In this document: in pieces, positions 21,657 through 27,330 of the stretch
Layout of the letters: each line of letters begins with the position of its first letter
How positions within the stretch are numbered: position 1 is the first letter of the stretch
Origin: Flavobacterium sp.
GTDB taxonomy: Bacteria; Bacteroidota; Bacteroidia; Flavobacteriales; Flavobacteriaceae
Length of the DNA: 64,000 nucleotides
Direction: 5' to 3'
Assembly (NCBI RefSeq): GCF_024710485.1
Contig: NZ_JANJUQ010000044.1
Coordinates: 1 to 64,000 of the forward strand
Translations under genes and position numbers: made by a program
Notes under the pieces: model-generated
Seen by the model: only the letters and a program-made list of their open reading frames with translations
Told to the model about the DNA's origin: nothing
Databases searched by the model: none

Positions 21657-21727
21657 TGGTCTATGGTGTAATGGTAACACTACGGTTTTTGGTGCCGTCT
21701 TTCTAGGTTCGAGTCCTAGTAGACCAA
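21657..21727 (+). tRNA. tRNA-Gln (anticodon TTG)
   Basis: The acceptor arms TGGTCTA and TAGACCA pair with a weak first T-A pair, as is typical of tRNA-Gln. The anticodon stem ACGGT / GCCGT holds the loop TTTTGGT with anticodon TTG, and the T arm is CTAGG-TTCGAGT-CCTAG. The discriminator base is A and CCA is not encoded. The length of 71 bases is usual. It stands alone, with its own promoter and terminator. Confidence 0.97.
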
Positions 21728-21731
21728 CGAT

Positions 21732-21760
21732 AAATCCCGCTTCAAGCGGGATTTTTTGTT
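21732..21760 (+). terminator. Terminator of tRNA-Gln
   Basis: AAATCCCGC (21732-21740) pairs with GCGGGATTT (21746-21754) around a five-base loop and continues into a T-rich tail. Confidence 0.88.
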
Positions 21761-21776
21761 TTTATTTCATTCATAA

Positions 21777-21802
21777 AAAAAGCCGCATTAATGCGGCTTT
21801 TT
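21777..21802 (-). terminator. Terminator of the universal stress protein gene
   Basis: GCCGCAT / ATGCGGC, extended by A and T runs to a 12-base stem (21777-21788 with 21791-21802), lies just past the stop of the minus-strand gene. Confidence 0.85.
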
Positions 21803-22684: not shown

Positions 22685-22714
22685 TAAAGGTATTATTTTT
22701 TTTTGATTCGGCAA
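22685..22714 (-). promoter_or_regulatory. Possible promoter of the universal stress protein gene
   Basis: On the minus strand TTG (22714-22712), 19 bases, then TACCTTTA (22692-22685), a one-base variant of TAnnTTTG. It overlaps the region of the divergent rimP promoter. Confidence 0.4.
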
Positions 22715-22720
22715 TGATTT

Positions 22721-22749
22721 TTTGATTTATAAAAAAATAACTATATTTG
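22721..22749 (+). promoter_or_regulatory. Promoter of the rimP-nusA-infB operon
   Basis: TTTG (22721-22724), 17 bases, then TATATTTG (22742-22749). Transcription should start near 22755, leaving a leader of about 58 bases. Confidence 0.75.
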
Positions 22750-22778
22750 CGCCGTTATTTACCATACAAATTAAATAA

Positions 22779-22805
22779 TGAGGGAAGCACTGCTTCCCTC
22801 TTTTT
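22779..22805 (+). promoter_or_regulatory. Terminator-like hairpin (candidate attenuator) in the rimP-nusA-infB leader
   Basis: GAGGGAAGC (22780-22788) pairs perfectly with GCTTCCCTC (22792-22800) around a three-base loop and is followed at once by five Ts (22801-22805). It has the form of an intrinsic terminator on the plus strand but lies between the operon promoter and the rimP start at 22814, with no plus-strand gene upstream to terminate. Because NusA itself enhances hairpin termination, feedback control of nusA is a natural hypothesis. The upstream ATG at 22778, in frame with rimP, would put the hairpin inside the gene and is less likely to be used. Confidence 0.65.
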
Positions 22806-22813
22806 ATACAACA

Positions 22814-23284
22814 ATGACATTTAAAGAAAAAGTTTCAAATTTAATAACAGAAGAATTGGCAAACAATTCCTCTTTGTTTTTGGTAGATTTGAGTGTTTCA
22901 GAGAGTTATAAAATTACCGTAACTTTGGATGGAGATCACGGCGTAACTCTACAGGATTGTATTGATGTTAGTCGAGCTGTAGAAAACAACCTTGACCGTG
23001 AGGAACAGGATTTTTCATTAGAAGTAGCGTCTGCAGGAGTTTCTTCGCCTTTAAAGTTGGTCCGACAATACAAGAAAAATATTGGTCGCACATTAAAAGT
23101 AAAAACTACGACCTCGGAAACTATCGAAGCTAAGTTGGAAGCAGCTAATGAGGAATATATTACTCTTGTTTGGACGGCAAGAGAACCAAAAAAAATAGGG
23201 AAAGGGAAGGAAACGGTCGAACACAAACGGGAAATCCCTTATTCAGAAATAAAAGAAGCAATTGTTACAATAATTTTTAATTAA
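22814..23284 (+). CDS. rimP: Ribosome maturation factor RimP
   Basis: RimP assists maturation of the 30S subunit. From the ATG at 22814 (MTFKEKV) the product is 156 residues with the family landmarks [53 protein letters not shown] and an SH3-like C-terminal half. The frame extends 12 codons further upstream through the leader hairpin, but the family start is MTFKEK. It is the first gene of rimP-nusA-infB, with nusA eight bases downstream. Confidence 0.96.
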
Positions 23285-23292
23285 AAACAGGC

Positions 23293-24534
23293 ATGGAAAA
23301 TATTGCATTAATCGAATCATTTTCAGAGTTTAAAGACGATAAACTTATTGATCGAGTAACGCTTATGGCGATTTTGGAAGATGTATTTAGAAACGCATTA
23401 AAAAAGAAATACGGTTCTGATGATAACTTTGATATCATTATCAATCCTGATAAAGGAGATATGGAAATTTGGAGAAATCGCGTGGTGGTAGCTGATGGAG
23501 AAGTGGAAGATGAGAACCAACAGATTGCCTTGTCTGAAGCACGTAAAATTGAGCCTGACTTTGAAGTTGGTGAAGATGTTTCAGAAGAAGTAAAATTAAT
23601 CGATCTAGGAAGAAGAGCGATTTTGGCTTTACGTCAAAACTTGATTTCTAAAATTCACGAACATGACAATACCAATCTTTACAAGCAATTTAAAGATTTA
23701 ATAGGTGAAATTTATACGGCCGAAGTACATCATGTTCGCCCAAGAGTTGTAATTTTGGTGGATGATGAAGGCAACGAAATTGTTTTGCCTAAAGAAAAAC
23801 AAATCCCGTCCGACTTTTTCCGCAAAGGCGATAACGTGCGCGGAATCATTGAAAGTGTTGAATTGAAAGGTAATAAGCCGCAAATCATCATGTCTAGAAC
23901 GGCAGATAAATTCTTGGAAAAACTATTTGAACAAGAAATTCCAGAAGTATTTGACGGTTTGATTATGATTAAAAAGGTAGTGAGAATTCCTGGTGAAAAA
24001 GCGAAAGTAGCCGTAGATTCTTATGATGACAGAATTGATCCGGTTGGCGCTTGTGTGGGAATGAAAGGGTCTCGTATTCACGGTATTGTTCGTGAGTTAG
24101 GCAACGAAAATATCGATGTAATCAACTACACCAGCAATTTGCCGTTGTACATCACCAGAGCTTTAAGTCCGGCTAAAGTTTCTTCTGTTAAAATCGACGA
24201 AGAGAAAAAAAGAGCCGAAGTATTTTTAAAATTAGAAGAAGTTTCTAAAGCCATCGGTCGCGGTGGTCATAACATCAAATTGGCCGGATTGTTAACCGGT
24301 TACGAATTAGACGTGATTAGAGAAGGAAGTGCTATTGAAGAAGATGACGTTGAATTAACAGAGTTCTCAGACGAAATCGACGGTTGGGTAATCGACGAGT
24401 TTGCTAAAATCGGTTTAGATACCGCTCGCAGCATCCTGAACCAAGACGTAGCCGATTTAGTGAGAAGAACTGATTTGGAAGAAGAAACTATCTTAGAAGT
24501 AATCAAAATATTGAAAGAAGAGTTTGAAGACTAA
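23293..24534 (+). CDS. nusA: Transcription termination/antitermination factor NusA
   Basis: NusA binds RNA polymerase and nascent RNA and modulates pausing, termination and antitermination. The 413-residue product has the N-terminal polymerase-binding domain, an S1 domain (about residues 135-200) and two KH domains with GACVGMKGSRIHGIVRELGNE and IGRGGHNIKLAGLLTG. The acidic C-terminal repeats of E. coli NusA are absent, as is usual in this phylum. It lies between rimP and infB. Confidence 0.98.
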   Translation: MENIALIESFSEFKDDKLIDRVTLMAILEDVFRNALKKKYGSDDNFDIIINPDKGDMEIWRNRVVVADGEVEDENQQIALSEARKIEPDFEVGEDVSEEVKLIDLGRRAILALRQNLISKIHEHDNTNLYKQFKDLIGEIYTAEVHHVRPRVVILVDDEGNEIVLPKEKQIPSDFFRKGDNVRGIIESVELKGNKPQIIMSRTADKFLEKLFEQEIPEVFDGLIMIKKVVRIPGEKAKVAVDSYDDRIDPVGACVGMKGSRIHGIVRELGNENIDVINYTSNLPLYITRALSPAKVSSVKIDEEKKRAEVFLKLEEVSKAIGRGGHNIKLAGLLTGYELDVIREGSAIEEDDVELTEFSDEIDGWVIDEFAKIGLDTARSILNQDVADLVRRTDLEEETILEVIKILKEEFED

Positions 24535-24576: not shown

Positions 24577-27330
24577 ATGTCTGAAGGAAATATTAGAATT
24601 AATAAAGTTTTAAGGGAATTAAATATTTCTTTGGAAAGAGCTGTGGATTATCTTAAGGATAAAGGGATTGCTATTGAAGCAAGTCCTAACACAAAAATTT
24701 CCGATGATGTATACAACATTCTTTGTGGTCAATTTGCCGGCGACAAAGGCAACAAAGAAGCTTCTAAAGGAATAAGCGAAGAGATCAGAAAAGAAAAAGA
24801 AGCCCTTCGTTTAGAAAGAGAAAAAGAAATTGAAGACAAGCGCAAACAGGAAGAGGAACGCCAACGTCTTGAGCTCATCAAAGCCAAAGCCGTAATCAGC
24901 GGACCGAAGCAAGTCGGAAAAATCGATTTAGAACCGAAGCAAAGTGTTGCTGCCCCGGAAACTCCTAAGATTACCGCGGAAAAATCAGAAAGTGTTACTC
25001 CAAAAAGTGAAGCAGCACCGGTAGCCGAGCCAAAAAAAGAGGCTCCAAAAGAAGTTGTTGCTCCTAAAGTAGTGGCTGCAAAGCCAGCGGATACAGCGGC
25101 AGATGAGACTATAACTACGCAATACCAAAAATTGTCCGGTGCCACTTTGACCGGTCAGGTAATTGATTTGTCTCAATTTAACAAGCCGAAAAAGAAGAAA
25201 GAAGAATTCAAGAAAGACAATGGTAAACCGGCTGCTGCTAACGGACAAAGTACTAATGCAAGTCAGAATGCCAACAAAAATAAACGCAAAAGAATTGCGC
25301 CGAAACCCGGAGACAAACCGGCTATAACAGGAGGCAATAATGCACAAGGCGGACCTTCTAAATTTGGCAATAAACCAGGCTTCCAAAAAGGGAATCGTCC
25401 GGCTATCGTTCAAAAAGTAGAGCCGACAGAAGAAGAGGTTAAAAACCAAATCAAAGAAACTTTAGAGCGTTTACAAGGAAAAGGAAACAAATCCAAAGCT
25501 GCGAAATACCGTAGAGACAAGCGTGATACACACCGTCAACGTTCGGAAGATGAAATGCAGGCGATGGAAGAAGGAAGCAAAATCCTGAAAGTAACCGAGT
25601 TTGTTACTGTAGGTGAAATTGCGACCATGATGGACGTGCCAATTACTAAAGTAATCGGAACTTGTATGACCTTGGGAATCATGGTAACCATGAACCAAAG
25701 ATTAGACGCCGAAACACTTTCTATTGTAGCCGATGAATTTGGTTATCAAGTAGAATTTATTACCACTGATATTGAGGAAAACCTTGAAGTAGTTGAGGAT
25801 AAACCGGAAGATTTAGTACACCGCGCGCCTATCGTAACCGTAATGGGTCACGTAGATCACGGTAAAACTTCCTTGTTGGATTACATTCGTAAAACCAATG
25901 TAATTGCAGGAGAATCCGGAGGAATTACCCAACACATCGGTGCTTACGGAGTAGAATTAGAGAATGGTCAAAAAATAACATTCTTGGACACGCCAGGTCA
26001 CGAAGCTTTTACCGCTATGCGTGCTCGTGGTGCTCAAGTTACTGATATTGCCATCATTGTTATTGCTGCGGATGACGACATCATGCCTCAAACCAAAGAA
26101 GCTATCAGTCATGCTCAGGCAGCCGGCGTTCCTATGATTTTTGCCATCAATAAAGTGGATAAACCTGCCGCTAATCCTGAAAAGATTAAAGAGCAATTGG
26201 CGGGAATGAATTTGTTGGTAGAAGACTGGGGTGGAAAATACCAATCACACGATATCTCAGCTAAAGCCGGAACCGGTGTGAAAGATTTATTAGAAAAAGT
26301 ATTGTTAGAAGCTGAATTGTTAGATTTGAAAGCAAATCCAAACAAACCTGCTGTAGGTACAGTAGTAGAGGCTTTCTTAGATAAAGGTCGCGGATATGTG
26401 TCAACTGTTTTGGTTCAAGCCGGAACATTAAAAGTAGGCGATTATGTATTGGCTGGGAAGAATCACGGTAAAGTAAAGGCCATGCACGATGAAAGAGGAC
26501 ACAATGTATTGGTGGCCGGTCCGTCAACGCCCATATCCATTTTAGGATTGGATGGAGCGCCAACAGCGGGTGACAAGTTCAATGTGTTTGAAGACGAAAG
26601 AGAAGCCAAACAAATCGCAGCCAAACGTACTCAATTATTGCGTGAGCAATCGGTTCGTACGCAAAAGCACATTACTTTGGCAGAAATCGGTCGTCGTATC
26701 GCTTTAGGACAATTCAAAGAATTAAATATTATCTTAAAAGGAGATGTTGACGGTTCGGTAGAAGCATTGTCTGATTCCTTCTCTAAATTGTCAACCGAAG
26801 AAATTCAAATCCGAATCATACACAAAGGTGTTGGTGCGATTACTGAGTCTGATGTATTGTTGGCTTCGGCTTCCGATGCAATTATTATCGGATTTAACGT
26901 TCGCCCTTCCGGAAACGCTAAACAATTGGCTGACAAAGAAGAAATCGATATCAGAAACTATTCAATTATTTACGATGCTATCGACGACTTGAAAGATGCG
27001 ATGGAAGGCATGTTGTCTCCGGAGATGAAAGAAGAAATTACCGGAACAGCTGAAATCCGTGAGCTTTTCAAAGTTTCTAAAGTGGGAACTATTGCCGGAT
27101 GTATGGTTACCGATGGTAAGATCTTCCGTAACTCTAAAATCCGTTTGATTCGCGAAGGAGTTGTTATTTACACCGGAGAATTGGCTACCTTAAAACGTTT
27201 TAAAGACGATGTGAAAGAAGTGTCTAAAGGATATGATTGCGGTATGCAAATCAAGAACTACAACGACATTCGTGAATACGATACTATCGAAGCTTTCCAA
27301 GAAGTGGAAGTGAAGAAAAAGTTGAAATAA
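24577..27330 (+). CDS. infB: Translation initiation factor IF-2
   Basis: IF-2 is the GTPase that places initiator tRNA on the ribosome. The 917-residue product has a short N-terminal IF2N domain ([19 protein letters not shown]), a long charged and Pro/Ala/Lys-rich linker (about residues 60-330), then the GTPase with GHVDHGKTS (from Gly424), DTPGHEAF and NKVD motifs, and two beta-barrel domains around IF2 domain 3. It is the last gene of its operon and ends at a strong hairpin. Confidence 0.99.

Follow-up and report, generated by a model that had tools for sequence, protein, structure and literature searches.

A conserved terminator-like hairpin before rimP-nusA-infB in Flavobacterium is a candidate NusA-responsive attenuator

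NusA autoregulation in B. subtilis was reportedly worked out by Mondal in 2016. The available part of a review attributes it to NusA-stimulated termination in the leader (PMC12288461), and this leader is 180 nt long according to the available text of a 2010 survey (Naville & Gautheret 2010, PMC2965389). The same text describes the rimP-leader, a single hairpin with a G-rich 5′ arm, a C-rich 3′ arm and a T-stretch, which is found before rimP-nusA-infB, has no antiterminator, lies 4-130 nt from the gene and has the core GGGc(...)gCCC. There, RimP feedback was considered and NusA was preferred as the regulator, without a test in genomes that lack rimP. In S. agalactiae (gbs0413-gbs0418), an intrinsic terminator lies 31 nt after the rimP-nusA-infB start site, short and long transcripts are made from the leader, and negative feedback by NusA was proposed, as far as the available part of that study goes (PMC4448216). 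For E. coli, two terminators upstream of rimP are described in the available source text. The original prediction for the locus studied here had expected a mechanism different from that of E. coli. This expectation is not borne out, since the available parts of these sources describe or propose leader terminators or NusA feedback on rimP-nusA-infB for E. coli, S. agalactiae and B. subtilis. Closer to our locus, the available text on F. psychrophilum reports a structured 5′ element upstream of rimP that is transcribed, occurs in other Flavobacteriaceae genera and has no Rfam hit (Guerin 2021, PMC9723704). The words Bacteroidetes and Flavobacteri are absent from the main text of PMC2965389 in its available form, "nusA" is not mentioned in the available part of the B. 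thetaiotaomicron map paper, and the one rimP passage in the available part of an E. coli 3′-end paper concerns a Rho mutant and has no bearing on NusA. Among the matches listed, in which subscription journals are thinly covered, we found no other paper on a Bacteroidota mechanism for the rimP leader.

The window, a stretch of 64,000 nucleotides of Flavobacterium sp. DNA, carries the operon, as assigned by Pfam, on the plus strand as rimP (22814..23284, 156 aa from the ATG at 22814), nusA (23293..24534, Pfam NusA_N and KH_5; the likely effector gene) and infB (24577..27330, encoding IF2, Pfam IF-2). Ahead of rimP, on the same strand, a predicted terminator stem-loop occupies 22780..22800, where GAGGGAAGC (22780-22788) and GCTTCCCTC (22792-22800) form a perfect stem of 9 bp around the loop ACT (22789-22791). 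A U-run of five (TTTTT, 22801..22805, plus strand) and then ATA follow, and the rimP ATG lies eight bases beyond TTTTT and 13 nt beyond the end of the stem. A perfect nine-base-pair hairpin with a three-base loop and five Ts between promoter and rimP, as originally predicted, is thereby confirmed at 22780-22805. The promoter −7 box, TATATTTG, was recognized from its sequence at 22742..22749 on the plus strand; TAnnTTTG is the sigma-A −7 box in F. psychrophilum according to the available text of PMC9723704. Judging from the position of the box, the start region and first transcribed bases are predicted at 22753..22759 (plus strand), transcription probably begins at about 22753-22756, and the predicted leader before rimP is ~60 nt long. 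The TTATT columns of the start region are invariant in our alignment of Flavobacterium-type loci (A1).

The hairpin is far beyond chance. RNA from 22754-22830, a stretch that also takes in a weak AU hairpin upstream, folds at −17.4 kcal/mol with a z of −4.72, and 0 of 200 shuffles were as stable. The AU hairpin (TTATTTA/TAAATAA, 22755..22778, plus strand) is possible and not well supported: 94.7% of its cells are paired, one pair shows a two-sided change, and three pairs are disrupted in a subgroup of 7 of the 57 distinct rows. With the helix broken in this subgroup, it is a weak candidate for an antiterminator.

The upstream neighbor of the leader is a divergent universal-stress-protein gene on the minus strand (22643-21819). 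Beyond it, 1 kb upstream of the leader, lies a plus-strand tRNA-Gln (TTG) at 21657-21728, followed by two terminator-like hairpins (21732-21754 and 21777-21802). The claim that no plus-strand gene precedes the hairpin thus stands for protein genes directly before it. A role as the tRNA-Gln terminator was rejected, as one gene and two hairpins intervene in the window and a promoter box lies ahead of the stem in loci that lack rimP. Gene callers can start at an in-frame ATG at 22778 and so read 12 extra RimP residues across the hairpin (22778-22813); this ATG is probably not the start of rimP. We also rejected the hairpin as a coding N-terminal extension from this ATG: the distance to the rimP ATG keeps the frame in 64 of 80 rows and breaks it in 16, and relatives including L097 and L098 do not have the ATG at 22778.

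To follow the element across the genus, we retrieved 80 rimP loci, and alignment A1 consists of 79 of these and the window; L034 was omitted because its contig begins inside the hairpin. A hairpin with a T-run was found ahead of rimP in 80 of the 81 Flavobacterium-type loci. Some of the retrieved loci have no label finer than Flavobacteriaceae or Flavobacteriales, and L030 and L066 bear the names of other genera. The contigs of these two are labelled Bifidobacterium breve and Lentimicrobium, yet both have a Flavobacterium-type rimP and leader and look misbinned. Four paired variants of the stem occur, GAGGGAAGC, GAGGGGAC, GAGGCACGC and GAGGGGAGC, each with a matching 3′ arm, and a single row (L030) has one broken pair. 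Over the 57 distinct rows, both bases of four of the nine stem pairs change without loss of pairing, three pairs are invariant, and 96.9% of the hairpin cells pair. Pairing over the entire structure falls from 95.9% to 48-67% when its partner columns are slid. Alignment of rimP upstream regions had been proposed as a check on the original prediction, and its outcome is favorable, both in the covariation of the stem and in its conservation in relatives.

Beyond the genus, the covariance model R1 had matches with E up to 0.1 in 133 of the 249 genomes of the family, three of them with a second, weak match. The best-scoring 30 of the R1 loci all lie directly ahead of rimP, and 28 of these 30 are outside the genus. 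A RimP protein search of 30 of the 116 family genomes missed by R1 found rimP in 26, and 20 of these 26 loci have a terminator-like hairpin within 120 nt of the gene; in this sample, therefore, the misses mostly reflect sensitivity. A hairpin with a U-run within 120 nt before rimP was present in 22/25 loci of the order and 27/28 of the class, which gives 69/79 class loci outside the Flavobacterium type. The phylum set has a hairpin and U-run before rimP in 29 of 30 loci, with three (L204, L208 and L220) belonging to the same class and L208 being the same place as L185. In 193 of 193 loci, nusA comes after rimP. Three sites (L125, L130 and L193) lie more than 120 nt away and were left out of the 120-nt counts; a looser scan found a hairpin beside the start in each. 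The looser scan found none in 7 of the 79 loci (L119, L129, L138, L155, L159, L160 and L162), five of which pass the main scan. In L119, a hairpin stands ~103 nt ahead of rimP, separated from the gene by additional sequence.

Shuffled regions gave few such sites: 2/810 for the Flavobacterium type, 7/260 for the family loci missed by R1, 4/250 for the order and 9/280 for the class (20/790 for family, order and class together), and 15/300 for the phylum. The inside-gene control passed in 2/81, 4/26, 0/25, 0/28 and 1/30 loci of the Flavobacterium-type, R1-missed family, order, class and phylum sets. The antisense control was not clean, with 63/81, 5/26, 3/25, 13/28 and 2/30 passing in the same five sets, since an inverted repeat in AT-rich surroundings also reads as a hairpin on the opposite strand. 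Direction is therefore judged from gene order and from the conservation of the U-run.

The sequence of the stem bears on whether termination is controlled by another protein that binds the G-rich/C-rich stem, such as IF2 or a ribosomal factor. Of 83 loci from the family, order and class, 4 of them Flavobacterium, 47 share the core GGGGAC..GTCCyC, a degree of sequence conservation that a plain terminator does not need, and infB remains next to nusA in the loci that lack rimP, as would suit IF2 as factor or target. On the other hand, the loop sequences vary among loci and the stem is replaced outside the class (L196-L225), for example by GTGGGG..CCCCAC and partly with reversed strand bias and a C-rich 5′ arm (CGCCCC..GGGGCG), while RimP itself is excluded where it is absent. 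We regard control by such a protein as very unlikely. The predicted terminator form is kept outside the class and the stem sequence is not. One family, f5 (L143-L147 and L149), has a different hairpin, AAGGC..GCCTT, and possibly an outer helix, ATTTAC/GTAAAT; in most of the six loci, the 3′ arm of this helix falls beyond the U-run.

The leader is short. Exact TAnnTTTG occurs no more than 70 nt before the stem in 79/80 genus, 19/20 family, 22/22 order and 27/27 class loci, against a chance expectation of ~0.04 per 70 nt, and the end of the box is 11-31 nt from the stem in these sets. With the start site placed from the box, the leader RNA ahead of the stem would be some 5-27 nt in the class. 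The 11-31 nt gap excludes known riboswitch, T-box and leader-peptide designs in the class. This argument is valid for the class and not for the phylum, because exact TAnnTTTG occurs in only 6 of 29 phylum-set leaders. By Rfam and the box-to-stem spacing, there is no sensor domain or leader ORF between the predicted start and the terminator. No Rfam family scored above threshold at the window leader. For RF01770 (rimP), there was no match in 22700-22860 of the window at E up to 10 and none of 21 relatives was above the gathering score; sub-threshold matches to this family number 63 across the window's own genome at E up to 1. A plasmid search gave no match. The suggestion that the switch possibly has no other ligand is in keeping with these results: no ligand-binding part is visible, and covariation, the short gap between promoter and stem, and retention without rimP support a leader terminator.

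Such an element is rare before genes in this genome. In 336 kb, hairpin and T-run sites were counted at 2 of 66 divergent leaders versus 31 of 53 convergent 3′ ends, the 66 excluding rimP with its hairpin because ATG 22778 was taken as the rimP start there. The U-run is five long in 79 of 80 Flavobacterium-type leaders, compared to a median of six at the 31 convergent 3′ ends of this genome, and this short run hints slightly at a weaker stop. Terminators that depend on NusA are generally weak ones. A point against NusA is therefore that the 9-bp stem is strong and that the sole pointer to weakness is the short U-run (5 versus a median of 6).

Genomes without rimP provide a natural experiment. 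The hairpin lies directly before nusA in 15 of 21 genomes that lack rimP there, under eight family labels, and the six without a hairpin are all 0.64 Mb or less. The NusA search covered 26 genomes with no RimP match and the rimP-bearing G200; 20 of the 27, including G200, gave a locus, and the 7 with no NusA match were left out of the rimP-less count. RimP was absent from the other 19 NusA loci by an HMM of 123 RimP sequences, four of these loci beginning at nusA at contig position 1. Pfam RimP (PF02576) had no match over cut-off in 16 of 16 whole genomes, 3 of which gave weak matches at E 0.03-0.2, and no match in G284, G292 and G300. In the first batch, 13 of 15 loci had a hairpin within the 200 nt ahead of nusA (shuffles, 12/750). 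Four genomes of ~0.63 Mb with nusA at contig position 1 showed no hairpin by eye at the contig end, the contig being taken as circular. The second batch was four further genomes with no Pfam RimP match, of which two (G425 and G426) were counted and both carry the hairpin before nusA; L279, whose contig begins inside nusA, and L280, whose RimP was missed by Pfam and found by HMM and whose sequence contains Ns, were excluded from the rimP-less count. As a control, the 200 nt ahead of nusA were scanned in rimP-bearing loci, and 0 of 193 had a site of this type. Among the 15 rimP-less hairpin loci, 14 have TAnnTTTG 9-51 nt before the stem. In the nine of these 15 chosen for a visible tRNA, the tRNA upstream was tRNA-Gln (TTG) in all nine; the neighborhood looks ancestral because the same tRNA is upstream in the window.

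The element goes with nusA-infB. RimP as the sole effector was rejected, since it is missing in genomes that keep the hairpin. Such genomes independently indicate that nusA(-infB), rather than RimP, is what the widespread rimP attenuator serves. They also bear on a post-transcriptional role, in which the hairpin would shield the mRNA 5′ end or tune the start of rimP translation. At 13 nt from the rimP ATG in the window, it could be reached by an initiating ribosome. However, the spacing to the start codon varies, with the stem 20-145 nt from the nusA start in rimP-less genomes, and a U-run of 4 or 5 stands behind the stem throughout the genus set, which protection does not need. A post-transcriptional role is thus very unlikely. 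Another possible explanation is a fixed partial terminator that gives constant low read-through with no regulating factor. Neither an antiterminator nor a sensor is visible, and the terminator form persists from class to class under different stem sequences, as this explanation would have it. Yet a weak promoter would be a simpler route to the same result, retention across the phylum and without rimP suggests a regulated step, and NusA feedback on rimP-nusA-infB has been described or proposed in other phyla in the available texts. We consider a fixed terminator unlikely.

Very probably, the hairpin is an attenuator of nusA-infB, and feedback by NusA is the best explanation of a conserved leader terminator, with both termination here and its NusA dependence inferred from sequence. 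We propose a minimal attenuator, a partial terminator strengthened by NusA that exerts negative feedback on its own operon, and give this reading a probability of roughly 0.7. RNA polymerase would start ~25 nt before the stem and make the hairpin and U-run. A fraction would stop near 22805 and release a short RNA of ~50 nt, and the remainder would read into rimP-nusA-infB. NusA bound to the polymerase would strengthen the hairpin-dependent stop, so high NusA would lower the operon and low NusA would let more polymerase pass. The promoter and terminator, with ~50 transcribed nt, could be the whole regulator, sensing polymerase-bound NusA only through how often it stops. It is about an even bet that this unit is old in the phylum, is tied to nusA-infB and gauges NusA independently of the stem sequence. 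Its age and its tie to nusA-infB show in its presence, promoter included, before nusA in rimP-less genomes of eight family labels. If true, this NusA gauge could be transferred to any flavobacterium to report on free NusA. To our knowledge, few leader regulators have been worked out in Bacteroidota, and NusA has hardly been studied there. With this element, NusA feedback could be tested in the phylum on a minimal system that is already at hand.

Compared with the rimP-leader, as described in the available text of PMC2965389, the window has the same position in the rimP-nusA-infB leader, a G-rich 5′ and C-rich 3′ arm, a T-stretch, no larger conserved element or antiterminator, and a distance to the gene (13 nt) within 4-130 nt. 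Against the core GGGc(...)gCCC, the window has GAGGGAAGC/GCTTCCCTC and much of the class GAGGGGAC/GTCCCCTC; GGG and CCC are present in the window stem, with AAG/CTT between them and the last C-G pair. Rfam RF01770 is named for the same gene, and the window is not over its gathering threshold. The F. psychrophilum element is alike by genus and gene, and the available text of PMC9723704 names it in a list without a mechanism. The S. agalactiae leader belongs to another phylum and its transcripts were measured, in the available part of that study, whereas those of the window are predicted. The same contrast holds for the B. subtilis leader, which is 180 nt and in which the effect of NusA was tested, according to the available sources, compared to ~60 nt predicted here. 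With the B. subtilis type, the window shares an element linked to the nusA operon, as its occurrence before nusA without rimP indicates. A leader terminator of the NusA operon is thus of an already known kind, and the new point is the genomes without rimP.
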